From Terriglobia bacterium (GTDB lineage Bacteria > Acidobacteriota > Terriglobia > Bryobacterales > Bryobacteraceae), in assembly GCA_020073305.1 (NCBI GenBank), contig JAIQFK010000035.1:1-64000 (forward strand): a stretch of DNA of 64,000 nucleotides. The letters run 5' to 3'. The position numbers and the translations under genes are program-made. Shown piece by piece: positions 2,839-17,459 of the stretch. How positions within the stretch are numbered: the first letter of the stretch is position 1; each line of letters begins with the position of its first letter. The notes under the pieces were generated by a model that saw nothing but the letters and a program-made list of their open reading frames with translations, ran no database searches and had not been told where the DNA came from.

Positions 2839-3321
2839 TCAATCGCCCGCCGATTTGGCCGTTAGAACCCACTTTAGGATTCCGTGCGGCTCCGATTCGC
2901 CGGTGTCGACCTCAACACTGACCAGCGCACCCTTCTTCAGATCGAGTTGCAATGCAGGGCATCCGAGCAGAAACGCCACGGCTTGACTGAGCAGCGGCTC
3001 GTGACCGGCGATCAACACTCGCTCGGCGCGCTGCGCGCGGATCTCTCCCCAGACTCGCTGCGGGGTGCTCATGGGGGCCAGCAGGTTGGTGGTGATCAGT
3101 TTCCGCTTGACGCCCAGCACGGCTCGAGCGATCTCGGCCGTTTGCACCGCTCGCTTCAAAGGGCTGGTGAGAATAGCGGAAGGGCGAACGCCAGCCACGC
3201 GCGCTCGCTCGAGCACGGTGCGCAGCTTCTGTTTCCCCTCCGGCGTCAAGGCGCGCGCCGCATCGGAGCCGCCGGGAGGCGCATCTTCAGCAATGCCATG
3301 CCGCAGAATGTAAACGCGCAA
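2839..3321 (-). CDS. sixA: SixA-type phosphohistidine phosphatase
   Basis: Histidine-phosphatase superfamily, about 160 aa, the usual SixA length. The catalytic RHG lies at residues 7-9, followed by ILTSPLKRAVQTAEI (about 50-64) and the second histidine in AGHEP (about 106-109). SixA removes phosphate from histidines of phosphotransfer proteins; some relatives act on other phosphoesters. The frame is open further upstream, but homologous sequence begins at a TTG (3319-3321) with GGAAGAAG just before it, 4 bp after the upstream kinase stop, so this start is preferred. It is the last gene of a three-gene minus-strand unit with two dTMP-kinase-like proteins, back to back with ppx. The cytoplasmic substrate is unknown. 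Confidence 0.85.
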   Translation of the reverse strand: MRVYILRHGIAEDAPPGGSDAARALTPEGKQKLRTVLERARVAGVRPSAILTSPLKRAVQTAEIARAVLGVKRKLITTNLLAPMSTPQRVWGEIRAQRAERVLIAGHEPLLSQAVAFLLGCPALQLDLKKGALVSVEVDTGESEPHGILKWVLTAKSAGD

Positions 3322-3325
3322 AGGA

Positions 3326-4102
3326 TTACTTCTTCCGCGGCCGCTTCGCGCTGTCCGACACCCGCGTGCGGTCCGCTCCGTTGATACGCGGTGTGTCGCG
3401 CAACCTTTTGATTTCCAGGTTCGAGATGTGCCGCTGCAGATCCTGGAAGATGAGGTCGGGCGGCCGGTCGGCGTCCACGGTGACGAAATCGTATGTCTTG
3501 GCCATTCCGTCGAGAGCACGGATTAGCCGCGTCTGGTACCGGACAAAGCTGTCGAACATGTTGTTGCCGAAGCGCATGTCCATGCCGCTCTCCCAATAGT
3601 CAAACGCGCCCCGGCCCAGCACGACACGCGACACCAGGTCCTTAACCTCGGCGCGCAGATAGTAGACGGCGTGCGGCACCAGGCCGAATCCCGTCACCTG
3701 GTCGATCCAACGGCGGTCCTCACCTCGGGCAATGGCGCGCGCAATGATCGAGAAAATGTAGCGGTCCGTCAGCACAACAAAGCCGGCACGGAGCGCGGGC
3801 ACGATCTCGTTCTCCAGCCGGTCCGCAAAATCAGTGGTGTAATACAACGTCATGGTGATGGGGCCGAGAGTGTTCCCATCTTTGGCCTGCTTGATGCCTT
3901 TGCCAGCCAGCGCGCCGCGCGCCATCCCGGTATCCAATACGGCGTGCCCCTCCTGCTCGAGCCATTGCCGGAGCCGGGCCACCTGAGTGGTACGGCCTAC
4001 GGCGTCAGGACCCTCGATGACAATCAGTTTGCCGTGCAATTCCTCGGGGTCCACGGCGGGGAGCGGCTCGCTATAGAACTGAAGGGGTTGTTTCTGCTGC
4101 AT
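3326..4102 (-). CDS. dTMP-kinase-like P-loop protein with altered Walker A
   Basis: About 258 aa with a thymidylate-kinase fold: KLIVIEG (about 25-31), P-loop GPDAVGRTTQ with Arg at about residue 37 where kinases have the nucleotide-binding Lys, TDFADRLENEIVPAL, and the DRY motif (about 113-115). A basic C-terminal tail (KRPRKK) extends past the fold. The TREPGGT signature of housekeeping Tmk is absent. ATG 4102 is preferred over an upstream frame start because AGGAGAG precedes it. It overlaps the upstream paralogue by 32 bp and precedes sixA by 4 bp, so the three are probably co-translated. Loss of the Walker Lys suggests weak or no kinase activity, or a regulatory partner for the neighbouring paralogue; this is inference. 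Confidence 0.75.
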   Translation of the reverse strand: MQQKQPLQFYSEPLPAVDPEELHGKLIVIEGPDAVGRTTQVARLRQWLEQEGHAVLDTGMARGALAGKGIKQAKDGNTLGPITMTLYYTTDFADRLENEIVPALRAGFVVLTDRYIFSIIARAIARGEDRRWIDQVTGFGLVPHAVYYLRAEVKDLVSRVVLGRGAFDYWESGMDMRFGNNMFDSFVRYQTRLIRALDGMAKTYDFVTVDADRPPDLIFQDLQRHISNLEIKRLRDTPRINGADRTRVSDSAKRPRKK

Positions 4103-4802
4103 GTGCCTCTCCTGGCGCAATTCGGAGCACGCCATTTTTCAGACTCTCACCCAGCTCGCGAACTACGATTTCCCGCATCTGCTGCTGCTGCTTTTCAATG
4201 GACAGCGTGGCGTCGATGATATGAAACCCGACTTCGTGCGCCATGGCTTCGTACTCATCGAGGATCCGGCCTTGGAAGATACGAAAGCTCTCTTCCACGT
4301 CACGGCTCAGTCCCAGGTCCATGCCGGCCTCATAATATTTGATCGCGTCGCGGCCCCCCAAGATGCGCCCGACGGCGACATCCAGCGGCACGCGAAAGTA
4401 GAAGCTCAGGTTCGGCCGGGTCGCAAACCGGTAGAGATTTCGCACCCACCGCCGGCTGACGCCGCGCGCCACATCGCGTGCGAACGCCGTGTATGCATAC
4501 CGGTCAGCGCAGACGATGGCGCCAGCTTTCATGAGCGGCACAATGTAGCGCTCCATGCGATCGGCGAAGTCTGTGGCGTGAATCAGGCTGAAAGTCGTGG
4601 GCGTGAACATCTCCTTCTTCTTGCCGCGGCGCGTGGTTTCCCGGACTAAAGGAGAAGAGTTCCATTCACTGAATGCGACCGCGAATCCCTGGGATCGGAG
4701 CCAGTGACTCAACAGTGACACCTGAGTGGACTTTCCTGAACCATCTATGCCTTCGACTACAATGAGTTTTCCTCGGAAGCGATTCGGTGCTAAGAGTGGC
4801 AT
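4071..4802 (-). CDS. dTMP-kinase-like nucleotide kinase
   Basis: A 243-aa protein with an intact P-loop EGIDGSGKSTQ (about 17-27), a Tmk-like ATDFADRMERYIVPLM helix and the DRY motif (about 100-102). The canonical dTMP-site loop TREPGGT is replaced by SEWNSSP, so the substrate may not be dTMP and I give no gene symbol. It is the first gene of the minus-strand unit ending in sixA and is divergent from ppx, with about 34 bp between starts. That position, among ppx, CHAD and DUF2252 genes, suggests a phosphate- or polyphosphate-related role more than DNA precursor synthesis, but a diverged Tmk cannot be excluded. Confidence 0.75.
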   Translation of the reverse strand: MPLLAPNRFRGKLIVVEGIDGSGKSTQVSLLSHWLRSQGFAVAFSEWNSSPLVRETTRRGKKKEMFTPTTFSLIHATDFADRMERYIVPLMKAGAIVCADRYAYTAFARDVARGVSRRWVRNLYRFATRPNLSFYFRVPLDVAVGRILGGRDAIKYYEAGMDLGLSRDVEESFRIFQGRILDEYEAMAHEVGFHIIDATLSIEKQQQQMREIVVRELGESLKNGVLRIAPGEAHAAETTPSVL

Positions 4803-4836
4803 ACGGGGGAGTGAGCGAAAATCATTATAGCCTTAT

Positions 4837-6369
4837 ATGCCTCGCTACGCTGCAATTGATATTGGGAGCAATTCTCTCCGCATGGAGGCGGCGGAAGTCA
4901 CGCCGGGAAGTCCGGCAAGGATTCTGGCCTCCGAACGGGAGGTTACCCGCTTGGGCGAGAGCGTATTCCGGACGGGAAAAGTGAGTCCTGAGGCGATCGG
5001 CCTGGTTTGCAAGGTCCTCGGCACGATGGCGCAGCAGTATCGAAAACTGGAGGTCATCGGCGTGCGGGCCGTCGCTACCAGTGCCGTACGCGACGCCAGT
5101 AACCAAGAAGAGTTCCTGGCCAAAGCTTCGGAAGCCATTGCGGCGCCGGTCGAGATCATTTCCGGCCAGGAGGAGTCGCGACTCATCCACTTGGGAGTGC
5201 AAAGCCGCTGGCCTCATAGCAAGCAGCGCCTGCTGATTATCGACGTAGGCGGCGGAAGCGCCGAGGTCATTTATAGCGATGGAGGCCGAATGAGAGAGGC
5301 GGTGTCGAAGCCACTGGGTGCGGTTCGCTTGACCGAGGTGTTTCTGAAGAGCGATCCTCCCATCGAGGCCGAACTCCACCGCATGCAGGATTACATCGAA
5401 GAAAAACTGGCTTCGGCCATGCGGCGGATCGGCCGGAGACAGTGGGATCGGGTGATTGCCACCTCGGGCACCGCCTCGGCCGTGGTGAGTGCTATCAACC
5501 GCGTGTCACAAGCCAAGGTGGATAAGACCGACCGGCTTCGCGCTTCGGCTGCCCAGATCCGGCAGTTGTACGAGGAACTCAGCGGTTACGGCCTGGAAGA
5601 GCGCCGCAAGATTACCGGGATCGGACCCAAACGAGCAGAAATCATCATCGCCGGGGTGGCCGTGCTCCACCGCTTCCTGCAGGACTTGCAACTGCCCTCG
5701 CTCTACTATTCGGCTGCGGGTTTGCGCGACGGGATCATCGCCGACCTCGCCGCCCGCGGTGTGGGGCGCGAGCTCTCCGAGTTGGATCGCGATCAGCGGC
5801 AGATGGTGGAAACCATGGCCCGGCGGTACGGCGTTGCGTTGCCCCACGCCCGCAAAGTGGCCAGCCTGGCGAACACACTGTTCACTTCTCTACAATCACT
5901 CCACGGCCTGGCGCCGCACATCGGCAAGCTGCTGGAGGCATCGGCGTACCTTCACGATGTTGGGCACTACGTCAGCGAGTCTCGGCATCATAAGCATTCG
6001 TACTATCTGGTGGCAAACTCCGACCTGCCAGGATTCACCGACCGCGAACGGGAGTTGATCGCCAATCTGTGCCGGTTCCACCGCAAGGCCATGCCGGTGA
6101 CCGACCACGTTGCGCTGGAAGCATTGAATAGCGAGGAGCGGCGAGCTCTGATCTTGCTGACTCCGCTGCTGCGCATCGCCGACAATCTGGATCGTAGCCA
6201 CGCCGAAAGAGTGGAAAGCCTGGAGTGCCTGGTTCGGGATGGGCAGGTGACATTGAAGCTCGGTTCGAAGAGTGATACCGACCTCGAGCAGTGGGCGGCC
6301 GAACGTTCCGCCGAAGCGTTTCGCGAAGTCTATGGCCGCGATCTGGTCCTGAGCAGGGTGAAGTCATGA
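4837..6369 (+). CDS. ppx: Exopolyphosphatase / guanosine pentaphosphate phosphatase with HD domain
   Basis: A 510-aa Ppx/GppA protein. The ASKHA core has the first phosphate loop YAAIDIGSNSLRM (about 4-16), a GVRAVATSAVRDA segment, GQEESRLIHLGV and the second loop IIDVGGGSAEV (about 139-149). A helical C-terminal part carries an HD-type domain with YLHDVGHY (about 370-377) and later His/Asp residues in HHKHSYYL and CRFHRK. Such proteins cleave terminal phosphate from polyphosphate or pppGpp in the cytoplasm. It heads a plus-strand unit with the CHAD and DUF2252 genes: its stop overlaps the next start as ATGA. The choice between Ppx and GppA activity cannot be made from sequence. Confidence 0.92.
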   Translation: MPRYAAIDIGSNSLRMEAAEVTPGSPARILASEREVTRLGESVFRTGKVSPEAIGLVCKVLGTMAQQYRKLEVIGVRAVATSAVRDASNQEEFLAKASEAIAAPVEIISGQEESRLIHLGVQSRWPHSKQRLLIIDVGGGSAEVIYSDGGRMREAVSKPLGAVRLTEVFLKSDPPIEAELHRMQDYIEEKLASAMRRIGRRQWDRVIATSGTASAVVSAINRVSQAKVDKTDRLRASAAQIRQLYEELSGYGLEERRKITGIGPKRAEIIIAGVAVLHRFLQDLQLPSLYYSAAGLRDGIIADLAARGVGRELSELDRDQRQMVETMARRYGVALPHARKVASLANTLFTSLQSLHGLAPHIGKLLEASAYLHDVGHYVSESRHHKHSYYLVANSDLPGFTDRERELIANLCRFHRKAMPVTDHVALEALNSEERRALILLTPLLRIADNLDRSHAERVESLECLVRDGQVTLKLGSKSDTDLEQWAAERSAEAFREVYGRDLVLSRVKS

Positions 6370-6767
6370 TGCAGCAGTACGCGCGCGAGCGAGCTTCCAC
6401 TCTGCTGCGAAGGCTGGCGTTTCGCATGAATCGCGCTGCCCGATTTCGGGATGCTGATTCCATCCACGATCTTCGCGTGGCTATCCGGCGTTTCGAACAG
6501 TGTCTCCAGATTTTTCATCAGTTTTTCCCGGGCCACACTAAAAAAATTCACCGGCGCTTGGGCAGAATCATGGAACTCTCGGGCGAAATCCGGAACCGCG
6601 ATATCGCGCTGGACTTGATGAAACAGGCGGGAGTGAAGGCGAATTCGGCGCTGCCGACGCAATTGCTTCGCGAACGAAAAGAGATCCAGGGCAAATTGAT
6701 GGCCTCCTTCGACCGATGGGGCGAGCGCGATCTGTCCCGCAAATGGGGTTCGAGGCTGGGGCTCTAA
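6366..6767 (+). CDS. CHAD domain protein, N-terminal half
   Basis: 133 aa forming the first half of a CHAD domain (conserved histidine alpha-helical domain). The signature SIHDLRVAIRRFEQCLQIF (about 32-50) has the conserved His and Arg residues, followed by helices with EIRNRDIALDLM. CHAD domains are known to bind polyphosphate. Its ATG overlaps the ppx stop. The frame ends at TAA 6765-6767 just after a run of four G (6758-6761), and the second half continues in the next frame. Adding one G to that run would join the two halves into one normal-length CHAD protein, so this is either a frameshifted gene, a sequence error, or a true split. Confidence 0.8.
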   Translation: MMQQYARERASTLLRRLAFRMNRAARFRDADSIHDLRVAIRRFEQCLQIFHQFFPGHTKKIHRRLGRIMELSGEIRNRDIALDLMKQAGVKANSALPTQLLRERKEIQGKLMASFDRWGERDLSRKWGSRLGL

Positions 6768-6769
6768 CC

Positions 6770-7231
6770 ATGGCAAAGCACGGCCGGCTCGTCTGGAACG
6801 GTTCCAAAAGCGCAGAGGAGAATGCCTCCCGGAAACTGCCGCAGCTGGCCCGCACATACTTTCGGGCGGGCCGCGCGCTCTTTGCGGCCGAATCCACCCC
6901 CGAGTCTTTGCACAAATTCCGGCTCAAGTCCAAACGATTTCGCTACACACTCGAACTGTTTCAGCCGTGTTACGGTCCGGGACTCGAAGAGCGCCTGAAG
7001 TTACTCCGCAACATTCAGGATCTTCTGGGTGAGATCAATGATTGCGTGACAACCCGGAAACTGGTGGCGCAAAACCAGCCCGCCGTCTCGAAATTCCTGG
7101 AGCGCCGCATGGCAGTCAAGAAACGGGCGCTGCGCAGTTACTGGTTCCAGACATTTGCGGCTGCGGGCCAGGAAAACTGGTGGGCGAACTACCTGGCACG
7201 TTTCGTCCGGAAACCAGGGCGGGCAACGTGA
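6770..7231 (+). CDS. CHAD domain protein, C-terminal half
   Basis: 153 aa with the second repeat of the CHAD domain: PESLHKFRLKSKRFRYTLEL carries the second His and basic cluster, followed by LLRNIQDLLGEINDCVTTRKL, the typical end of the fold. The ATG at 6770 lies 2 bp past the stop of the first half and has only a distant GAGG upstream, a weak site for independent initiation. That favours the view that 6366-7231 was one reading frame of roughly 288 residues. The stop overlaps the GTG of the DUF2252 gene (GTGA), so translation is coupled onward. Confidence 0.8.
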   Translation: MAKHGRLVWNGSKSAEENASRKLPQLARTYFRAGRALFAAESTPESLHKFRLKSKRFRYTLELFQPCYGPGLEERLKLLRNIQDLLGEINDCVTTRKLVAQNQPAVSKFLERRMAVKKRALRSYWFQTFAAAGQENWWANYLARFVRKPGRAT

Positions 7232-8340
7232 AGATCGCTAAAGCGACAGCGCAGTATGAAGAGTGGCTGAGGGAGCACATCCGCCTGATCGAGACCGACC
7301 TCGAACAGAAACACCGAGACATGGCTGCGGACCTGTTTTGCTTCCTCCGCGCAACGTTCTACCGCTGGATGCAACTCTGGCCGGAAGTGTGTTCGCAGCT
7401 CACTCGGGCGCCGGAGGTGCTAGCCGTGGGCGACCTGCACGTGGAGAATTTCGGCACCTGGCGGGACGTGGAAGGCAGATTGGTGTGGGGCATCAACGAC
7501 TTTGACGAGGCCTGCGAACTTCCCTACACTGTCGACCTTGTCCGGCTGGCGGCCAGTGCGCACCTGGCCATCAAGGGCGAACATCTGAGCCTCGGAACCA
7601 AGGACGCCTGCGACGCCATCCTGGACGGTTACGAGAGAGGGCTCTCCAGTGGGGGCGCCGCTTTCGTACTCGAGGAACACCATCCCTGGCTGCGCTCCAT
7701 GATGACAGGCGTATTGCGCAATCCGCAGCAGTTCTGGGCAAAGCTCGACGCTCTGCCCACTGAGAAGGGTTTCCCCGCGAGCGCACAAAAGGCGATTGAG
7801 AAAATGCTGCCGCAGCGCGGTTTGAGTTACCGTGTTGTGCACCGGGTAGCGGGACTCGGAAGTCTGGGTAGAGAGCGCTACGTGGCGATTGCAGAGTGCC
7901 CGGGGGGCAAGATTGCGCGCGAGGCCAAAGCCCTGGCTCCGTCAGCCTGTGTCTGGGCCGGCGGCGCCAGAACCCAGCGTCCGCGCTACCAGGAGATCCT
8001 GGATCACGCCGTCCGATCGGTGGACCCGTTCGTCCGCATGAAGGGAGGTTGGATCGTACGGCGCTTGGCGCCCGACTGCTCGCGTGTGGAACTGGCGTCG
8101 ATGCCTAAGGAGCGCGATGAAGCGCGCCTCCTGTACTCCATGGGGTTCGAGACCGCCAACGTACATCTTGGCGCCCGCCGAGCAGCGAAAGCCCTTCTAA
8201 GAGATCTCAAGAAGCGCCCCCATCTGTGGTTACATGAAGCCTCCGCCGAAATGGTCAAGGCCACCACCGAAGACTGGGAGCGTTGGCGCGCCCACTGGCG
8301 TTCCCCAAAAAAGAAGCCTGCGAATCGCTCCGCAGGCTGA
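7228..8340 (+). CDS. DUF2252 family, kinase-like-fold protein
   Basis: About 370 aa. DUF2252 proteins resemble aminoglycoside/choline-kinase-type phosphotransferases. The phosphotransferase-like signature is visible: GDLHVENFGTW (about 68-78), with His and Asn in the catalytic-loop position, then GINDFDEACELPYTVDLVRL (about 89-108), with Asp in the metal-binding position. The GTG start at 7228 overlaps the CHAD stop and the family sequence begins shortly after it; an upstream open frame over the CHAD gene was not used. The substrate is unknown. Coupling to ppx and CHAD suggests an activity on phosphate-rich molecules, which is inference. Confidence 0.8.
   Translation: MKIAKATAQYEEWLREHIRLIETDLEQKHRDMAADLFCFLRATFYRWMQLWPEVCSQLTRAPEVLAVGDLHVENFGTWRDVEGRLVWGINDFDEACELPYTVDLVRLAASAHLAIKGEHLSLGTKDACDAILDGYERGLSSGGAAFVLEEHHPWLRSMMTGVLRNPQQFWAKLDALPTEKGFPASAQKAIEKMLPQRGLSYRVVHRVAGLGSLGRERYVAIAECPGGKIAREAKALAPSACVWAGGARTQRPRYQEILDHAVRSVDPFVRMKGGWIVRRLAPDCSRVELASMPKERDEARLLYSMGFETANVHLGARRAAKALLRDLKKRPHLWLHEASAEMVKATTEDWERWRAHWRSPKKKPANRSAG
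8315..8338. terminator. Hairpin over the DUF2252 stop
   Basis: AGCCTGCG (8315-8322) pairs perfectly with CGCAGGCT (8331-8338) across an 8-base loop. There is no T-run after it on the plus strand, but there is one on the minus strand (TTCTTTTTT), so the motif would fit better as a minus-strand or weak bidirectional terminator. Confidence 0.4.
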
Positions 8341-8531: not shown

Positions 8532-9254
8532 ATGAAGAAGATCATGCTCATTGAGGATGACCTGGACCTGTACGAGCTCTTGAAGTACAACCTGGAAAAG
8601 GCGGGCTTCGGCTTTGTTGGGTCCAAGACCGGAAAAGGGGCTATCGAGTTCTGTTCGAAAGAACGGCCTGATCTGCTCCTGCTCGATATTATGCTCCCTG
8701 ACTCCAGCGGTCTGGAAATCTGCACGCGCCTGCGAAACCATGCCGAGTTAGCGGCGACTCCTATCGTCTTCATCACCGCGCGCGGCACCGAGGCCGATCG
8801 CATCACGGGTTTGGAAATAGGGGCCAACGATTATGTGGTGAAGCCTTTCTCCATCCGGGAATTGATCACGCGCGTCAAAGTCCAGTTGCGTCCTGCCGCT
8901 GAAATGGGCGCCAGCTCTTTGCGGTCTGGTGCGCTGGAGTTGGATCGAAGCAAACGTCAGGTTCGCCACAACGGACAGCGAGTGCCGCTCACTGCGACGG
9001 AGTTCCGCTTGCTGGAATTCCTCATGAGCCGGCCCGGCATCGTGTTCAGCCGCGAGCAACTGCTGAATGCCATCTGGGGTAACAACCGCGCGATCATCGA
9101 CCGCAGCGTGGATGTCTATATCTTAAGGCTGCGGAAAAAGCTGGAAACGGCGCCGGCAAAGCCTCAATTGATCTGCTCCGTGCGGGGGTTCGGATACAGT
9201 TTCAATGCCGACCAGGCTTCGAACGAAATCGATCCAGTCGCTGCGCAGGCCTGA
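8532..9254 (+). CDS. phoB: PhoB-type response regulator
   Basis: 240 aa, OmpR/PhoB family. Receiver domain with acidic pair IEDD (about 7-10), phosphoacceptor Asp about 52 in LLLDIMLPD, and Lys about 104 in VVKPF. The C-terminal winged helix contains LTATEFRLLEFLMSRPG and the DVYILRLRKKLE recognition region. As a phosphorylated dimer it should bind Pho boxes and recruit RNA polymerase when phosphate is low. It lies directly upstream of phoR (112 bp) and pst, with a matching Pho box before itself, which makes PhoB a firm assignment. Confidence 0.92.
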   Translation: MKKIMLIEDDLDLYELLKYNLEKAGFGFVGSKTGKGAIEFCSKERPDLLLLDIMLPDSSGLEICTRLRNHAELAATPIVFITARGTEADRITGLEIGANDYVVKPFSIRELITRVKVQLRPAAEMGASSLRSGALELDRSKRQVRHNGQRVPLTATEFRLLEFLMSRPGIVFSREQLLNAIWGNNRAIIDRSVDVYILRLRKKLETAPAKPQLICSVRGFGYSFNADQASNEIDPVAAQA

Positions 9255-9366: not shown

Positions 9367-11145
9367 GTGAGATCCAAACGCCTTCCAGTCTTCCACAGTC
9401 CTCTGTTCCGCAAACTGCTCGTCAGCGCCTTCTTTCTGATTGCCGCCACGCTGTTGGGCCTGGACTTTCTTCTCACCAGCTACATCGCTAGCCGCGAAAC
9501 GCAATCTGTGCAACGCCAGTTAAGCTCCGAGGCGCGCATCCTGCGAGAAGAGGTCCCGGATGCGGTGCCTGAACGCCTCGAGGCATGGGCCAAGGATGTG
9601 TCGCGACGCGCAGAAGCGCGCGTTACCGTGATCGATCCAGGAGGCGCGGTGCTGGCCGATTCTGAGCACGATCCCGAGACCATGGAGAACCATGGCAACC
9701 GGCCTGAAATTCGTCAGGCGTACGCAGGCCAGGTCGGCGTCGCCATCCGGCATAGCGCAACCCTGGACCGCGACCTTTGCTATGTGGCCGTGAGTTTCCC
9801 TTACCGCGGCGCCGCGGGGTTCGTCCTTCGCATGGCAGTACCGCTTGAGGAATTGAACTCGGCGGTCGCCGGAGTGCGCTGGTGGTTGATGGGAGCGTCG
9901 TTGATCGCCCTTTGCGCAGCGATGGTGATTGCCTACTTCTTTTCGGAGCGGTTCGCGGGGCGCGTTAGCCAGTTACAGTCGTTCGCGGAACATCTGGTGG
10001 AAACCAGAGCGGCGCAGGACATCAAGCCCGGCACGGATGATGAACTCGGCGCGCTGGCTCGCTCGCTAAACCGCATGGCGGCACAGTTGCGCGACTCCCT
10101 CGAGCGTTTGAGCCTGGAGTCCGCCCGGCGGGAGGCAATCCTCTCCAGCATGGTCGAAGGCGTGCTCGCGGTCGACCAGGAGATGCGCATCATCTTTTGC
10201 AATGAGTCCTTCGCGCGCGTGATCGGCGTCTCCGGAGCCATTCGCGAGCGCACGCCGCTCCTGGAGGTGGTGCGCGACGCCGGCCTGCTCGACATGCTCT
10301 CGGAGGTGCTGATCGCAGATAAGCCGCGCAAGCAGCGGCTGGCTCTTTCGGCTGCGGAGGGCCGTTCGTTCGAGGTGCAGGCCGCTCCTCTGTCGGCATC
10401 CTCTCGCCGGGGCGCGATCGCCGTGTTGCACGACATCACGGACCTCGAGCGGCTGGAACGCGTACGGAAGGATTTTGTCGCCAATGTGTCTCATGAGCTG
10501 CGTACTCCTCTGACGGCCATTCGCGGCTATGCGGAGACGCTGCTCGAAGGCGCGCTGGAGGACCCCGCCAACAATCGGAAATTCCTCGAGATCATCAAGG
10601 CTCAGGCTGCCCGACTGAACAACATCGCGTCCGACCTCCTGGTGCTGTCGGAACTGGAGTCAGGCAAGTCCGCGGAGCAAGAACGCCTCTCGATTCCCAG
10701 CGTCCTCGAAAGCGCGCTGCACACCGTGGAATCCGAGGCGAGAGTAAGGGAGGTCCAGATTATTTGCAGCCCGGTGGAAGACGTGTACGTGGTGGGGTCC
10801 AAAATCCGGCTGGAACAGGCGCTCGTCAACCTGCTGGATAATGCCATCAAATTCAACCGGCCGTCCGGGCAAGTACGTGTCGAAGTCATGCGCGCAACCG
10901 ATGGCCAGGTACGGATCACCGTAGCCGACACTGGAATCGGAATTCCTTCCGATGATCTGTCGCGCATCTTCGAGAGGTTTTACCGGGTGGACAAAGCCCA
11001 TTCTAGAGCCGTGGGCGGAACGGGCCTGGGGCTTTCTATCGTCAAGCACGTCCTGGAACGCATGAACGGAAGAATCACGGTTGCCAGCGAGCTCGGCAGA
11101 GGTTCGGTCTTCAGCATCACGTTGCCATCATGCAACGCGAATTAA
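9367..11145 (+). CDS. phoR: PhoR-type phosphate sensor histidine kinase
   Basis: 592 aa. N-terminal membrane segment (about 15-38), an extracytoplasmic region of roughly 130 residues, a second membrane segment (about 178-198), HAMP, and a PAS domain starting around ILSSMVEGVLAVDQEMRIIF. Then HisKA with FVANVSHELRTPLTAIRGYAE (His about 376), and HATPase with LVNLLDNAIKFN, ADTGIGIP and GGTGLGLSIVKH. The start is GTG at 9367 with a weak ribosome site. The periplasmic loop is much larger than in E. coli PhoR and resembles the Gram-positive arrangement. It should autophosphorylate and pass phosphate to PhoB, restrained by PhoU and the Pst transporter. Confidence 0.9.
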   Translation: MRSKRLPVFHSPLFRKLLVSAFFLIAATLLGLDFLLTSYIASRETQSVQRQLSSEARILREEVPDAVPERLEAWAKDVSRRAEARVTVIDPGGAVLADSEHDPETMENHGNRPEIRQAYAGQVGVAIRHSATLDRDLCYVAVSFPYRGAAGFVLRMAVPLEELNSAVAGVRWWLMGASLIALCAAMVIAYFFSERFAGRVSQLQSFAEHLVETRAAQDIKPGTDDELGALARSLNRMAAQLRDSLERLSLESARREAILSSMVEGVLAVDQEMRIIFCNESFARVIGVSGAIRERTPLLEVVRDAGLLDMLSEVLIADKPRKQRLALSAAEGRSFEVQAAPLSASSRRGAIAVLHDITDLERLERVRKDFVANVSHELRTPLTAIRGYAETLLEGALEDPANNRKFLEIIKAQAARLNNIASDLLVLSELESGKSAEQERLSIPSVLESALHTVESEARVREVQIICSPVEDVYVVGSKIRLEQALVNLLDNAIKFNRPSGQVRVEVMRATDGQVRITVADTGIGIPSDDLSRIFERFYRVDKAHSRAVGGTGLGLSIVKHVLERMNGRITVASELGRGSVFSITLPSCNAN

Positions 11146-11196: not shown

Positions 11197-11285
11197 AGAC
11201 CGTTCAATCAGACAATATGCAGTTTGCGTCCGCTTGTTGCGGTTTCTCCACCGCTGCGAAAATCCACTTCAACAGGAATCAACTC

Positions 11286-12998
11286 ATGACTAGAAAACCG
11301 TATCTCTGTTTGACCCAGATTCTGTTTCTGATCGCCGGCGCCATTCCGGTGCTAGCAGCCGATAAACAGGGAGGCCAGCCGGCGGCCGACACGAGCCAGG
11401 AGGTCAATCAGCTCAAAATCCAGCTTGCAGATCAACAACGGCAAATTGAGGAACTACGAGCCGCGCTGCAGAAACTGATCGCAACCAGACAGGCTGCGGC
11501 GGAAGATGCCGCATTGACCACTCATCCGCAGGCCGGCACTCCGGGCGTTCCGCAGCTTGGGCAAGTCGCAAGCACTACCCCGATCGTGCCAGTTGCTCCA
11601 GCCGTCCAGCCGCTGGTATTCCCCATGCCCGCTGCCGCAGCGGCGCCCCAGCAGACCATGATGCCGGAGTCACCACTGCAAATCCACATCGGCTCTGCCA
11701 CGATTACACCCGTCGGCTTCATGGACTTCACGGCCGTTGCCCGGTCGACAAATCCCGGCAGCGGTATCGGCACCAACTTCGGCAGCGTTCCGTATAACAG
11801 TGCAGTCAATGGCAACGTCAGCGAATTTCGTCTGAGCGCCCAGAACTCGCGGCTCGGCATCCGTGTGGATGCCAACGTTAAGGGTGCGAGTGTGCTGGGT
11901 TACATGGAATCGGACTTCCTCGGATTCCTCCCTGGCAATGGCGCCGTTACCAGCAACAGCGACAGCCTGCGGCTGCGGCTGTATTGGGTGGACGTGCGAA
12001 AGGACAAGGTGGAGTTTTTTGGCGGCCAGTCCTGGAGCATGCTGACGCCCAACCGCAAAGGTCTTTCGGCGCTGCCCGGCGACCTGTTCTACTCCCAAGA
12101 TATCGACGTGAATTACCAGAACGGTTTGGTATGGAGCCGTAATCCGCAGTTCCGGTTCATCGTCCACCCCAGTGACAAGGTTGCTATGGGGGTGTCGCTG
12201 GAGAATCCCGAACAGTACATCGGCGGTTCGGGTGGAGGCGGCCTGATCACGTTGCCCGCTGCGTACTCCACGCCCTATGCCAGCCAGTTGAACAATGGCA
12301 ACACAACGCTTTCGGCGCCTAACGCACACCCGGACATCATCGCCAAACTCGCTCTTGATCCAAGTTCCCGGGCCCATCTCGAACTCGCCGGTGTGTTCCG
12401 CACATTCCGGGTTTACGATCCTCTCGTACATACGCATGACACCGCGAACGGGTTTGGCGGTTCCGCAAATGTCAATTTCGAGCTGGCCAAGGGGTTCCGC
12501 GTCTTGAGCAATAACTACTGGAGCGATGGCGGCGGCCGCTGGATCTTCGGCCTGGCTCCGGACCTGATTGTCCGGCCTGACGGAACTTTGTCCCCCATAC
12601 ACGCCGGTTCCACAGTGGATGGATTCGAATACTCGGTAAAGCGTACGCTGCTGTACGCATATTACGGCGGAACGTTTATCCGGCGAAACTACGCAGTGGA
12701 CGCCAGCGGCGCCAAGCCGGTGTTCGTCGGTTATGGTTATAGCGGTTCTCCCAACAGCCAGAACAGGTCGATTCACGAGCCGACAATCGGACTTACCCAG
12801 ACATTCTGGAGAGATCCCAAGTACGGCGCCTTGCAGTTGATGCTTCAGTATTCATACGTGCAGCGCGACCCCTGGTTCGTAGCCACGGGCGCGCCGAAAG
12901 ATGCTCACACCAGCATGGTGTTTCTCAACCTGCGCTACCTGTTGCCTGGCTCCGCACCCGCAGCCGCGCTTCCTCCGCTGCCTCTGAAGACGCCGTAA
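11286..12998 (+). CDS. DcaP-like outer-membrane porin, probable phosphate-regulated
   Basis: About 570 aa. The start is set at ATG 11286 because a signal peptide follows (MTRKPYLCLTQILFLIAGAI, cleavage after VLA). Next comes a short coiled coil (about 38-65, EVNQLKIQLADQQRQIEELR), as in trimeric DcaP/porin-O-type proteins. A Pro/Ala linker leads into a beta-barrel with alternating patterns (PVGFMDFTAVARS, SRLGIRVDANVKG, VEFFGGQSWSML), ending in paired strands of the type LMLQYSYVQRDPWF and VFLNLRYLL. It probably forms an outer-membrane channel. Its place between phoR and pstS and its own Pho-box array point to anion or phosphate uptake, analogous to PhoE/OprP by role but not by close sequence. 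Confidence 0.75.
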   Translation: MTRKPYLCLTQILFLIAGAIPVLAADKQGGQPAADTSQEVNQLKIQLADQQRQIEELRAALQKLIATRQAAAEDAALTTHPQAGTPGVPQLGQVASTTPIVPVAPAVQPLVFPMPAAAAAPQQTMMPESPLQIHIGSATITPVGFMDFTAVARSTNPGSGIGTNFGSVPYNSAVNGNVSEFRLSAQNSRLGIRVDANVKGASVLGYMESDFLGFLPGNGAVTSNSDSLRLRLYWVDVRKDKVEFFGGQSWSMLTPNRKGLSALPGDLFYSQDIDVNYQNGLVWSRNPQFRFIVHPSDKVAMGVSLENPEQYIGGSGGGGLITLPAAYSTPYASQLNNGNTTLSAPNAHPDIIAKLALDPSSRAHLELAGVFRTFRVYDPLVHTHDTANGFGGSANVNFELAKGFRVLSNNYWSDGGGRWIFGLAPDLIVRPDGTLSPIHAGSTVDGFEYSVKRTLLYAYYGGTFIRRNYAVDASGAKPVFVGYGYSGSPNSQNRSIHEPTIGLTQTFWRDPKYGALQLMLQYSYVQRDPWFVATGAPKDAHTSMVFLNLRYLLPGSAPAAALPPLPLKTP

Positions 12999-13076: not shown

Positions 13077-14129
13077 ATGACCAAACGAAACTGCCTTGTT
13101 GCCGGAGTCGTTCTGGCTTTGAGTCTGGTGGCTTACGAATGGGCGCCAACATCCCCAATGGTAGTAAATGCCGCCGGCGCGCTCCTGATCAACGGCGCCG
13201 GCGCGACATTTCCGTATCCCATTTACGCCAAGTGGTTTGATGAGTACCACAAGAGCCACCCGGACATCCAGATCAATTATCAGTCGATCGGATCGGGTGG
13301 CGGCATCCGCCAACTTCTGGCTGGGACGGTGGACTTCGGCGCTTCTGATGGCCCGATGACGGATGAACAGCTCGGCCAAGCCAAAGTCAAGATCCTGCAT
13401 TTTCCAACGGTACTGGGAGCGGACGTTCCGACTTACAATCTCCCTGGCATCTCGCAGGAACTGAAGTTCACCCCCGAAGCCCTAGCCGGAATCTTTCTTG
13501 GAACCGTGAAAAAGTGGAATGCCAGCGAGCTGGTGAGCGCCAATCCTGGTGTGAAACTGCCGGACAACGACATCGTGGTTGTGCACCGGTCCGACGGCAG
13601 CGGAACCACATATGTGTGGACCGACTATCTTTCCAAAATCAGCGAGGCATGGAAGACCAAGGTGGGCAAGGCAACGGCGGTGAGCTGGCCTGTAGGTCTC
13701 GGGGGCAAGGGCAATGAGGGTGTGGCTGGGTTGGTGCAACAAACGCCGTATTCACTTGGGTACATCGAGTTGATCTATGCCGTGCAGAACAAGATGGCTT
13801 ACGGCCAGGTGAGGAATTCCTCCGGCGCTTTTGTGAAGGCGAGCGTGGCGAGCGTTACCGCGGCTGCTGCGGATGCCGCGAAGACCATGCCTGACGATTT
13901 TCGGGTGTCGATTACAAATCCACCCGGCAAGAGCGCATACCCCATCTCCAGTTTCACCTGGCTGCTGATACCCAGCACCATTAGTGACTCGGACAAGCGC
14001 ACGGCGATCACCGGCGTTCTAAAGTGGATGCTCACGGACGGACAGAAGATGACCGAGGCGCTTTCGTATGCGCCGCTTCCTCCCGAAGTAGTCAAGAAGG
14101 AAACCCAGGCCATCGCCCAGATTCATTAG
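13077..14129 (+). CDS. pstS: Phosphate-binding protein PstS
   Basis: 350 aa with an N-terminal signal segment (about 1-32). The mature part has PstS motifs: INGAGATFPYPIYAKWFDEY (about 39-58), YQSIGSGGGIRQL with the phosphate-binding Ser/Gly loop, DFGASDGPMT, and HRSDGSGTTYVWTDYL. It captures phosphate in the periplasm for the PstCAB transporter. GGAGGT lies 6 bp before the ATG, the strongest ribosome site in the operon, as expected for the most abundant component. It opens the pstSCAB-phoU unit; pstC follows after 1 bp. Confidence 0.96.
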   Translation: MTKRNCLVAGVVLALSLVAYEWAPTSPMVVNAAGALLINGAGATFPYPIYAKWFDEYHKSHPDIQINYQSIGSGGGIRQLLAGTVDFGASDGPMTDEQLGQAKVKILHFPTVLGADVPTYNLPGISQELKFTPEALAGIFLGTVKKWNASELVSANPGVKLPDNDIVVVHRSDGSGTTYVWTDYLSKISEAWKTKVGKATAVSWPVGLGGKGNEGVAGLVQQTPYSLGYIELIYAVQNKMAYGQVRNSSGAFVKASVASVTAAAADAAKTMPDDFRVSITNPPGKSAYPISSFTWLLIPSTISDSDKRTAITGVLKWMLTDGQKMTEALSYAPLPPEVVKKETQAIAQIH

Positions 14130-14130
14130 T

Positions 14131-15114
14131 ATGGCGGAGACGGTGGCGCTCTTGGAACCCCAGACCGAGGAAGACTTTAGACCAGCGTTCCTGGACCGCC
14201 TGAGAAATGGAGATGAGGTCGCCCATCTCGTCACGCTGATCTTTGCGGCGGCCATCCTTGTGATCGCAGCGCTGCTGGTGACCGAGCTTTTCGGCAGTTC
14301 GGCGGAGGCCCGCCACAAGTTTGGCTGGCATTTCTTTTTCACCAGCAAGTGGGACCCGGTAGCCGGCCAGTTCGGCGCTTTGCCTTTCATCTATGGCACC
14401 GTGGTGACGTCGGCCGTGGCCTTGCTGATCTCGGTGCCGCTGGGCGTGGGCGCCGCGATCTTTCTTTCGGAGCTCGCTCCGCCTCGTATTTCTGATAGCC
14501 TCACCTTCATCATCGAGCTGCTGGCCGCTGTGCCCAGCGTGATTTATGGGGTGCTGGCGATGTTCGCGCTGGTTCCTCTTCTTCGCGACCCGATCCAACC
14601 ATTCCTGAACCGCACACTGGGCTTCCTTCCAATCTTCCAGGGGCCGTCATACGGTGTCGGCTTTCTGGCCGCCGGAGTGATCCTGGCCATCATGGTCGTG
14701 CCGTTCGTCATCTCCATCTCGCGCGAGTCGCTTCTGGCCGTACCCAATGAGCAGCGTGAGGCAGCATTGGCCGTGGGAGCTACGCGCTGGGAGTCCACCT
14801 GGCAGGTAGTGGTTCCCTATGCGCGCCTGGGAATCATCGGGTCAGTCTTCCTGGCATTGGCGCGGGCTTTGGGCGAAACCATGGCTGTGACCATGGTCAT
14901 CGGCAACACACCCCAGATTGTGAAATCGCTTTTCGCTACCGGCTATACGATCCCTGCCGTAATCGCGAATGAATTTACGGAAGCAACCGAGGACCTTCAC
15001 CTTAGCGCGCTGGTCGAGCTGGGGCTTGTGCTTTTCCTGCTGACCATCATCATCAACGGATTCGCGCGCTTGATGGTCTTGGCTACAACGCGGAGGGGGA
15101 CCACGCATCCATGA
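14131..15114 (+). CDS. pstC: Phosphate ABC transporter permease PstC
   Basis: 327 aa with about six membrane segments. The permease loop for the ATPase is visible: ALAVGATRWESTWQVVVPYA (about 210-229), and ALARALGETMAVTMVIGN follows. The N-terminal segment is preceded by an acidic cytoplasmic stretch. It starts 1 bp after pstS and overlaps pstA by 4 bp (ATGA). Confidence 0.95.
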   Translation: MAETVALLEPQTEEDFRPAFLDRLRNGDEVAHLVTLIFAAAILVIAALLVTELFGSSAEARHKFGWHFFFTSKWDPVAGQFGALPFIYGTVVTSAVALLISVPLGVGAAIFLSELAPPRISDSLTFIIELLAAVPSVIYGVLAMFALVPLLRDPIQPFLNRTLGFLPIFQGPSYGVGFLAAGVILAIMVVPFVISISRESLLAVPNEQREAALAVGATRWESTWQVVVPYARLGIIGSVFLALARALGETMAVTMVIGNTPQIVKSLFATGYTIPAVIANEFTEATEDLHLSALVELGLVLFLLTIIINGFARLMVLATTRRGTTHP

Positions 15115-15953
15115 CTCCGCATCGGTGGAGAAATTTCGTCAACGGGCTCATGTTCGGTCTTACGGCTGCTTGCGCGTTGGCCACCGTGTGCTTCCTCTTC
15201 TGGATCCTGGGCTTTCTTATCTGGAATGGCGGAAGATCGCTGAATCTGGCCTTCTTTACCCATCTTCCCAAGCCGCCAGGCGAAACCGGTGGCGGCATGG
15301 CGAATGCCATAATAGGCAGCGCTCAGATTGTGCTCATCGCTTCGTTGATCGGCCTTCCCATTGGCTTCTTAGGCGGCATCTACCTGGCTGAATTTGGAAG
15401 CGGTGCATTTCCATTTTTTGTTCGCTATACCGCAGATCTGTTGAACGGCGTACCGTCCATCGTCATGGGTCTGTTTGCTTACGCGATCGTTGTGCGGCCC
15501 ATGCACCACTTTTCCGCATTTGCCGGCAGTGTAGCGCTGAGCGTGATTCTGATTCCAACCACCATCCGCACCACCGAGCAGTTTCTTCGTGCCGTACCGC
15601 AAACCCTGCGCGAAGGTGCGCTGGCGCTGGGCGCGAACAAATGGAGGGCCATCGCCACGGTCGTAGTGCCCGCCGCCGTGCGGGGAGTGGCTACGGGCAT
15701 GATTCTCGGAATCGCTCGCATCGCTGGCGAGTCCGCGCCGCTTTTATTTACCAGTCTTGGCAACGACTACTGGAGCACCAGCTTGAGCCAGCCGACTTCG
15801 GCCTTGCCGCTGATGATATATAAGTACGCCATCTCGCCCTACGCCGACTGGCACCGCCAGGCTTGGGCCGCCGGACTGGTTTTGCTCGCGCTGATGCTTC
15901 TGCTGAACGTCGGTGCGCGGCTGGTGCTGTCGCCTGGAGCTCCCCGGAACTAA
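15111..15953 (+). CDS. pstA: Phosphate ABC transporter permease PstA
   Basis: 280 aa, about six membrane segments. The EAA-type loop [21 protein letters not shown] (about 164-184) is followed by [19 protein letters not shown], typical of PstA. It pairs with PstC to form the inner-membrane channel. It overlaps pstC by 4 bp and is 7 bp upstream of pstB. Confidence 0.95.
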
Positions 15954-15960
15954 GACTAGG

Positions 15961-16785
15961 ATGATGGGCACACTACAACACTCCACCGCCGCCGGGCCGC
16001 CAGCACCGAATCCAGGCGCGACCGCGCCAGGACGTGTCGAACCAAAGCTCAAGATTTCGCGCCTCAACTTTTTTTACGGAGCCTTTCAGGCTTTGCATCA
16101 CGTTGAGTTGGAGATCGCGGCCAATCGCATCACTGCGCTGATCGGCCCTTCCGGGTGCGGAAAGTCCACATTCCTGCGGGTCTTGAATCGAATGCATGAG
16201 ACCGTGCGCGGCGCTCGCGTGTCGGGCGAGGTTCTGCTCGACAACGAGGATGCCTTAGCTATGGACGTGTCCCGCTTGCGCCGCCGCGTGGGAATGGTGT
16301 TTCAGAAGCCTAACCCGTTTCCGAAGTCGATCTTCGACAACGTGGCCTACGGATTGCGCGTAAACGGCTTGAAAGGCAGCGCCCACTTGAAAGAGGCGGT
16401 GGAGCACAGTCTGCGCAGAGCAGCGCTTTGGGACGAGGTCAAGGATAAGCTCCACAAATCCGCTTACGACTTATCCGGAGGGCAGCAGCAGAGGCTCTGT
16501 ATCGCGCGGGGATTAGCCGTCGATCCCGAAGTACTATTGTTGGACGAGCCTAGTTCAGCTCTGGACCCGATCGCTACGGCCAAAATCGAAGAGTTGGTCT
16601 TTCATTTGAAGGAGAACTGCACGATTGTCATTGTCACGCACAATATGCAGCAGGCGGCCCGCATCGCAGACGATACGGGATTCTTTCTTTTGGGCAAACT
16701 GATTGAATTCGACAAGACCGAAACCATCTTTAAGAATCCTGCCAAGAAAGAAACCGAAGATTACATCACGGGCCGCTTTGGATAG
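15961..16785 (+). CDS. pstB: Phosphate ABC transporter ATPase PstB
   Basis: About 274 aa. Walker [10 protein letters not shown] (about 61-69), signature [16 protein letters not shown], Walker [13 protein letters not shown] and the switch His in IVTHNM. An N-terminal extension of about 30 residues rich in Pro and Ala precedes the usual start of PstB. The first of two adjacent ATGs (15961, 15964) was chosen because the frame upstream overlaps pstA. PstB drives phosphate import and also acts in PhoR signalling through PhoU. Confidence 0.95.
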
Positions 16786-16796
16786 CTGAGGAAACG

Positions 16797-17459
16797 TTGC
16801 GTCACTTTATCGAAGAACTGGAAGAATTGCAGGGGCGGCTGCTCGAAATGGGCAGCCTCGTCGAATCAGCCATCCACCACAGCGTGCTCGCGCTGGTGGA
16901 ACGAAGCGAAGAAATGGCTCGCCAGGTGCTCCGGAACGAAGACCGGATCAATCACCTGGAGGTGGAAATTGACGAGTTGGCCGTTCGTCTTCTGGCTCTG
17001 CAACAGCCCATGGCCAAGGACCTGCGGTTGCTGACGGCCGCGATCAAGATCAACACGGATCTGGAGCGCATGGGCGACCTGGCCGTCAACATCGTGGAAC
17101 GGTCCATCGCCCTGATGCACCGGCCCCCCGTCAAGCCGTTCATCGATATACCGCAGATGGCGCACACCGTGGAATCCATGGTCCGCAAGAGCCTGGACGC
17201 CTTTGTCAAGCGCGAGCCGGAGTTGGCCCGCAGCGTGCTGCTTTCCGATGACGAGGTCGATCGTCTTCGTGACTCGATTCACAATGAGCTTGTGTCTTTC
17301 ATGCAAAAGGACCCTGCCGTCATCCCGCAGGCACTGGATCTGATCCTGGTCGCACGGCACCTGGAGCGGATTGCCGATCACGCGACGAATATCGCCGAAG
17401 ACACCCTTTTCCTGGTAAAAGGAGTGGACGTCCGGCATCACCTGGAACCCAACATCTAA
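16797..17459 (+). CDS. phoU: Phosphate signalling protein PhoU
   Basis: 220 aa, the normal length, with two homologous three-helix repeats. Each carries a PhoU metal-binding-type helix: KINTDLERMGDLAVNIVERS (about 83-102) and LVARHLERIADHATNIAEDT (about 182-201). It starts at TTG 16797 after CTGAGGAAA. PhoU links the Pst transporter to PhoR and represses the regulon under phosphate excess. It is the last gene of the pst unit and is followed by a GC-rich hairpin. Confidence 0.95.
   Translation: MRHFIEELEELQGRLLEMGSLVESAIHHSVLALVERSEEMARQVLRNEDRINHLEVEIDELAVRLLALQQPMAKDLRLLTAAIKINTDLERMGDLAVNIVERSIALMHRPPVKPFIDIPQMAHTVESMVRKSLDAFVKREPELARSVLLSDDEVDRLRDSIHNELVSFMQKDPAVIPQALDLILVARHLERIADHATNIAEDTLFLVKGVDVRHHLEPNI

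Follow-up and report, generated by a model that had tools for sequence, protein, structure and literature searches.

Tandem thymidylate-kinase-like proteins as a candidate two-subunit, PPK3-type polyphosphate kinase in bacteria and archaea

The contig JAIQFK010000035.1 of a Terriglobia bacterium (phylum Acidobacteriota; assembly GCA_020073305.1) was analysed over its positions 1 to 64,000, referred to here as the window. Near its left end the window encodes two tandem proteins that resemble thymidylate (dTMP) kinase (Tmk), which we call TKa and TKb, and they lie among genes for a SixA-like phosphatase, an exopolyphosphatase (Ppx) and a CHAD domain. Judged from sequence, TKa and TKb are probably the two subunits of a bacterial heteromeric polyphosphate kinase (PPK) of the PPK3 type rather than thymidylate kinases. 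The two genes are as follows.

4071..4802, reverse strand: TKa, Tmk-like, with an intact Walker A motif (GIDGSGKST), an EWNSS loop and an RGKKK basic stretch (Pfam Thymidylate_kin, 1.2e-20)
3326..4135, reverse strand: TKb, Tmk-like, with the Walker A Lys replaced by Arg (GPDAVGRTT) (Pfam Thymidylate_kin, 1.4e-17)

Among all solved structures the best match of TKa was Sulfolobus tokodaii ST1543 (PDB 2plr) at 195.1 bits, followed by a true Tmk at 55.1 bits. ST1543 was also the best match of TKb (107.6 bits, next 48.2), and a fold search with predicted models of TKa and TKb ranked eight ST1543 chains first for each. The mean predicted local distance difference test score (pLDDT) was 81.8 for the TKa model and a mediocre 67.8 for the TKb model; since segment 51-65 of the TKa model scored below 50, acceptor-site geometry is not argued from the models. 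Both proteins missed the cut-off of TIGR00041, the dTMP kinase equivalog (83.25 bits; TKa 82.1, TKb 63.4), and some relatives of each exceed it, reaching up to 94.8 bits. In Pfam, at E values up to 0.01, Thymidylate_kin was the sole match of either protein. The PPK2 family (PF03976), which has a P-loop kinase fold related to that of thymidylate kinase, gave no match.

The residues that set the pair apart were compared across 89 TKa and 89 TKb sequences aligned with ST1543 and five canonical Tmk; one locus enters this alignment twice, L033 and L095 being identical DNA. The canonical EPGGT/EPT loop is replaced by EWNSS or AWNSS in all 87 TKa that cover it, and the YQ that follows DRY/DRF in canonical Tmk is RD in 89/89 TKa (ARD in 83/89). 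Both of these segments, the EP/PGGT loop and YQ, bind thymidylate in true Tmk. The WNSS loop is followed by a basic stretch that reads RGKKK in 61/87 TKa, five divergent Thermoplasmata TKa (L080-L084) retaining only its GK. ST1543 (PDB 2plr, 4nzy, 4rzx and 5h70) was deposited as a probable thymidylate kinase and, like TKa, has the EWNSS loop, the ARD motif and an intact P-loop, with the KKK of its basic stretch preceded by Ala (AKKK). In TKb, the thymidylate-site segments are replaced by segments other than those of TKa. The alignment thus agrees with the first-pass annotation of this DNA, which had described both kinases as lacking a TREPGGT-type loop, and adds a correction for TKb. The Walker A Lys is retained in 87/87 TKa that cover the position (the partial TKa of L047 and L056 do not reach it), and the same position is Arg in 89/89 TKb, of which 77 are bacterial and 12 archaeal.

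A maximum-likelihood tree of 96 of the 184 sequences separated TKa, TKb and ST1543 from the five canonical Tmk by a branch with support of 100/99. Canonical dTMP kinase (TIGR00041) has the fold, the P-loop and the DR motif in common with the pair but differs in the replaced EP/PGGT loop and YQ and in lying on the opposite side of this branch. TKb forms one side of a 99/95 branch, within which bacteria and archaea are intermixed, and bacterial and archaeal TKa are likewise intermixed. The split between TKa and TKb therefore appears to be older than their spread, and the pair has probably moved between the two domains of life together. ST1543 sits on a long branch and has an odd composition, so that its exact position inside the TKa/TKb clade is unsure.

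The tandem pair is present in Acidobacteriota, Myxococcota, one Planctomycetota metagenome-assembled genome (MAG) and Thermoplasmata archaea. A scan with TKa returned 54 loci, all with true relatives except L057, the weakest match, which was rejected because only the P-loop of an unrelated protein had matched; the genome of L057 nevertheless holds a true pair. TKb follows TKa immediately in 87/88 loci (86/87 distinct ones, given the identity of L033 and L095). Three phylum surveys, sampled independently of neighbourhood, found both genes in 37/347 Acidobacteriota genomes, in 12/116 genomes of the phylum of G357 (Thermoplasmata) and in 5/198 genomes of the phylum of G347 (Myxococcota), G347 itself being a source locus. 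The Acidobacteriota survey matched 47 genomes in all, namely the 37 with TKa and TKb (including G128, whose TKb is cut at a contig end), nine with a divergent kinase and one (G237) with TKb alone; of these survey matches, only the 37 are treated below as TKa genomes. A separate, better-scoring Tmk was found in 22/22 TKa genomes checked. Nor is the pair the only Tmk of the window genome (6.98 Mb, 51 contigs), whose contig C25 encodes a canonical Tmk that scores 166 bits, compared to 74.5 and 65 bits for the pair. In two MAGs titled Acidimicrobiia (L020) and Burkholderiales (L054), TKa shares 84% and 64% identity with that of the window, which may reflect mislabelled bins or transfer.

In the window, the pair belongs to a closely packed leftward group (TKa, TKb, SixA), and a rightward group (Ppx with an HD-type domain, two CHAD halves, DUF2252) begins 34 bases away. 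The first-pass annotation had named this set and placed it next to phoBR-pst; Pfam and NCBIfam matches confirmed the genes and their positions, and phoB, phoR and pstSCAB-phoU follow from 8532 to ~17459. The starts of pstC, pstA, pstB and phoU are approximate.

2839..3321, reverse strand: SixA-like histidine phosphatase (Pfam His_Phos_1, 1.9e-11; RHG motif read from sequence)
4837..6369, forward strand: Ppx/GppA exopolyphosphatase with HD-type domain III (Pfam Ppx-GppA 3.3e-63, Ppx-GppA_III 1.6e-33, HD 3.6e-8)
6366..6767, forward strand: N-terminal half of CHAD, a separate open reading frame (Pfam CHAD positions 16-131; ATGA overlap with ppx)
6770..7231, forward strand: C-terminal half of CHAD, a separate open reading frame (Pfam CHAD positions 139-227; ATG 2 bases past the preceding stop)
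7228..8340, forward strand: DUF2252 protein (Pfam DUF2252, 4.3e-26; GTGA overlap with the C-terminal CHAD half)
8532..9254, forward strand: PhoB-type response regulator
9367..11145, forward strand: PhoR-type histidine kinase (HAMP, PAS, HisKA, HATPase)
13077..17459, forward strand: pstS, pstC, pstA, pstB and phoU (PBP_like_2, BPD_transp_1 twice, ABC_tran, PhoU)

The SixA protein scored 70.5 bits against NCBIfam sixA, slightly below the cut-off of 74.5, and its gene likely starts at a TTG 4 bases past the TKb stop. TKb has an alternative ATG near 4102.

This neighbourhood recurs. We examined 53 pair loci, drawn by TKa alone and covered up to ~8 kb on each side: 37 from 36 Acidobacteriota genomes (G092 twice, the window excluded), 12 from the Thermoplasmata phylum and 4 from the phylum of G347 (one of the two pairs of G388 was used and G347 was left out). 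At least one of Ppx, CHAD and SixA lies nearby in 40/53 pair loci compared to 0/21 canonical tmk loci (Fisher p = 6e-10). The controls are 21 of the 22 canonical Tmk, that of G021 being omitted as it lies 7 kb from the genome's own pair, and three of them span less than 10.1 kb. Taken singly, Ppx was found at 33 of the pair loci, CHAD at 34, SixA at 21 and pst/phoU genes at 15; many pair loci are cut by contig ends, so these counts are lower bounds. The first-pass annotation had proposed a check of conservation across Acidobacteriota, and the neighbourhood recurs in several phyla and in archaea. Judged from sequence, neither outcome that the annotation had named as refuting its reading, a pair that is the genome's sole Tmk or a neighbourhood that is not conserved, was observed. 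DUF2252, which the annotation had listed with the set, was found in 8/53 genome-contig loci (one of them, L034, with a weak match of 29 bits) and in none of the 28 remaining loci that extend 5 kb or more to either side. It is not core to the set and is confined to close relatives.

The CHAD domain named in the first-pass annotation is present, but as two open reading frames in different frames, each encoding one half. The cut falls mid-domain, and together the two halves span profile positions 16-131 and 139-227 of 228, so that the domain is complete across them; they are the only CHAD matches in the window genome. In twelve relatives inspected by eye, CHAD is cut at the same place and the halves are encoded separately, which rules out a sequencing frameshift or pseudogene in the window. 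The second half begins there with ATG, GTG or TTG, a few bases from the preceding stop or overlapping it, and the frame offsets differ. In an automatic tally of 52 loci with a CHAD match, the domain was fused in 33, split in 14 and undecided in 5; the fused loci L033 and L095 are identical DNA, and two split ones (L051, L106) lie outside the set inspected by eye. The split appears to be an inherited gene fission, and the halves are probably translationally coupled.

Genomes with the pair tend to do without PPK1. Among Acidobacteriota, PPK1 was found in 6/37 TKa genomes compared to 194/310 others (p = 7e-8), and among the genomes listed for genera g2 and g44 some have the pair and others PPK1, none both. 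PPK2 is not depleted with TKa (31/37 compared to 177/310 by strong matches, or 187/310 when ten matches weaker than 1e-20 are included), so the PPK1 deficit is not due to genome incompleteness. Three two-contig genomes (G096, G123, G165) carry Ppx and CHAD with no PPK1 or PPK2 match, and the pair is therefore their candidate synthase, among the two kinds searched for (PPK1 and PPK2). As the pair and PPK1 coexist in some genomes, replacement of PPK1 is a tendency and not a rule. Collectively, these results suggest that the pair tends to stand in for PPK1.

The first-pass annotation did not know this exact set from any described system, but part of it is already in print. SixA, PPX, dTMP kinase and CHAD genes are clustered in biomining archaea (PMC10892726, Fig. 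2), a cluster that shares four gene types with the window locus; its kinase is labelled dTMP kinase by the authors, and the legend of Fig. 2 lists neither a second kinase nor DUF2252. A separate family of polyphosphate kinases in the heat-loving Sulfolobus is credited (PMC13318637, PMC11677633) to Hofmann et al. (2026, J Biol Chem 302:111283), whose preprint (10.1101/2024.08.28.610084) bears 'archaeal family 3 polyphosphate kinase' in its title. We propose that this crenarchaeal PPK3 is of the same family as TKa and TKb, the nearest solved relative of TKa being a Sulfolobus protein. The window locus differs in being bacterial, in adjoining phoBR-pst and in belonging to a genome that also has PPK1 and PPK2. 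ST1543 also appears in work on the Francisella PPK2, as 2PLR was the first Dali match after the PPK2s (PMC4748334). In a literature search covering few subscription papers, the bacterial pair was nowhere described; among the matches listed, no paper named ST1543 in the search for its activity and none joined PPK3 to Acidobacteriota.

Polyphosphate is suggested as the acceptor by the gene context, the archaeal parallel and the avoidance of PPK1. In the mechanism that we propose, TKa would bind ATP/ADP through its intact P-loop, and the segments that recognise thymidylate would have given way to the conserved WNSS loop, the basic GKKK-like stretch and the RD motif. TKa would then be the catalytic subunit, reversibly transferring phosphoryl groups between ATP and the polyphosphate chain. 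TKb, with Arg in its P-loop, may be a partner of little or no activity, probably completing a polyphosphate channel or regulating chain length; that the two form a heteromer is suggested by the anatomy of their genes. The CHAD halves are predicted to bind the polymer, Ppx would hydrolyse polyphosphate as the degrading arm, and phoBR-pst-phoU would couple the set to phosphate supply. The substrate, the direction of transfer and the roles of TKb and CHAD are read from genes and their arrangement. The first-pass annotation had suggested a pathway moving phosphate between polyphosphate, nucleotides and an unknown acceptor; the polyphosphate and phosphate setting holds, and the unknown acceptor is unneeded, as polyphosphate itself would be the simplest acceptor or donor.

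Several observations weigh against a polyphosphate kinase that stands in for PPK1. The window genome itself holds PPK1 (contig C2) and three PPK2 matches. PPK1 was found in 7/14 TKa genomes of a subset drawn from the 54-locus scan (14 of its loci, including the genome of L057, which holds the pair, and L033, the same DNA as the locus of G289). In the Thermoplasmata phylum, PPK1 occurs in 0/12 genomes with the pair compared to 16/104 others, which is not significant (p = 0.21). The Acidobacteriota association persists by genus (PPK1 in 6/27 genera with TKa compared to 99/162 others, p = 2.5e-4), where the genera were counted by hand and this collapse is the sole correction of the co-occurrence for phylogeny. 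As for the neighbourhood, 13/53 pair loci, several of them cut by contig ends, are without Ppx, CHAD and SixA. Three of these belong to G096, G123 and G165, which carry Ppx and CHAD elsewhere in the genome, and three to G074, G028 and G294, which have no CHAD match or strong Ppx match genome-wide. Among the 37 TKa genomes, five have no Ppx match, a sixth has one at only E = 1.4e-4, and three have no CHAD match. The pairing also has exceptions: in L054 the contig continues for 371 bases past TKa, with no TKb in them, and in G237 (locus L113) TKb was found but no TKa was detected. Lastly, orthology of TKa and ST1543 to the enzyme of Hofmann and colleagues is presumed; that enzyme is reportedly a Tmk-family protein related to ST1543, possibly with a partner.

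The pair could instead be a nucleotide kinase whose acceptor has changed, to another nucleoside monophosphate or to a phosphorylated small metabolite, and not a polymerase; it would be driven by ATP or, as in some PPK2, by polyphosphate. Its fold and P-loop are of the nucleotide kinase type, its acceptor-site segments are altered and not gone, PPK2 co-occurs in 31/37 genomes, and the pair and PPK1 are found together in some. We consider this unlikely, as both the negative association with PPK1 and the genomes that have Ppx and CHAD with no PPK1 or PPK2 match fit polyphosphate synthesis better. Still less probable is a regulatory or sensor complex, in which TKa and TKb would relay the binding of polyphosphate or nucleotides to the Pho system as a signal and would not make most of the polyphosphate. 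The TKb P-loop altered in every sequence and the pst/phoU genes near 15/53 pair loci would suit such a role, but TKa retains the Walker A Lys wherever it is covered, and the pst/phoU linkage is looser than that of Ppx (33/53) or CHAD (34/53). That two redundant dTMP kinases of the usual kind came to lie here by chance is scarcely credible: TKa nearly reaches the TIGR00041 cut-off and relatives pass it, but a better-scoring separate Tmk is present in 22/22 genomes, the thymidylate-site segments are replaced and the neighbourhood recurs.

If TKa and TKb do form a polyphosphate kinase, genomes that lack PPK1 and carry Ppx and CHAD would gain a candidate polyphosphate synthase, and bacteria counted as having none would need to be re-read. 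A set of annotations as (second) dTMP kinase would then be wrong, and the archaeal PPK3 idea would become testable in bacteria. A broader proposal, to which we give an even chance, is that several bacterial phyla and the Thermoplasmata archaea have a two-subunit PPK of the Tmk fold, in which a catalytic subunit is joined by an obligate one with an Arg P-loop, and that this enzyme has spread as a unit and has repeatedly stood in for PPK1. The Lys-to-Arg change in the TKb P-loop, kept from Acidobacteriota to Thermoplasmata archaea, calls for a mechanism, and the inherited split of CHAD offers a natural test of domain assembly on polyphosphate.

Other features of the window were also recorded. 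Between phoR and pstS, positions 11217-12998 encode a 593-residue protein that looks porin-like by eye and has no Pfam match at 1e-5. To the left of sixA, positions 1340-2431 encode a 363-residue protein with a hydrophobic stretch at its C-terminus and no Pfam or NCBIfam match; in a search for relatives, at the threshold used, only the genome's own copy matched. An integrase/transposase-like open reading frame at the window edge (73-726) was recognised by eye from its translation, and an Rfam scan of the window gave no feature at the gathering score.

A further group of ten loci (L114-L123, from G062, G107, G131, G167, G213, G269, G285, G301, G325 and G116) encodes a divergent Tmk-like kinase, with GSGK or GAGK and W-x-SS in the seven loci read. 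In 9/10 of these a second Tmk-like protein follows it, and in the six read the P-loop and DRY motif of this second protein are lost. None of the ten is near Ppx, CHAD or SixA. PPK1 was found in 8/10 Acidobacteriota genomes with a single match (nine of the genomes of L114-L123, and G237). L115 adjoins CotH-kinase and Porin_O_P genes, and L122 adjoins Porin_O_P.

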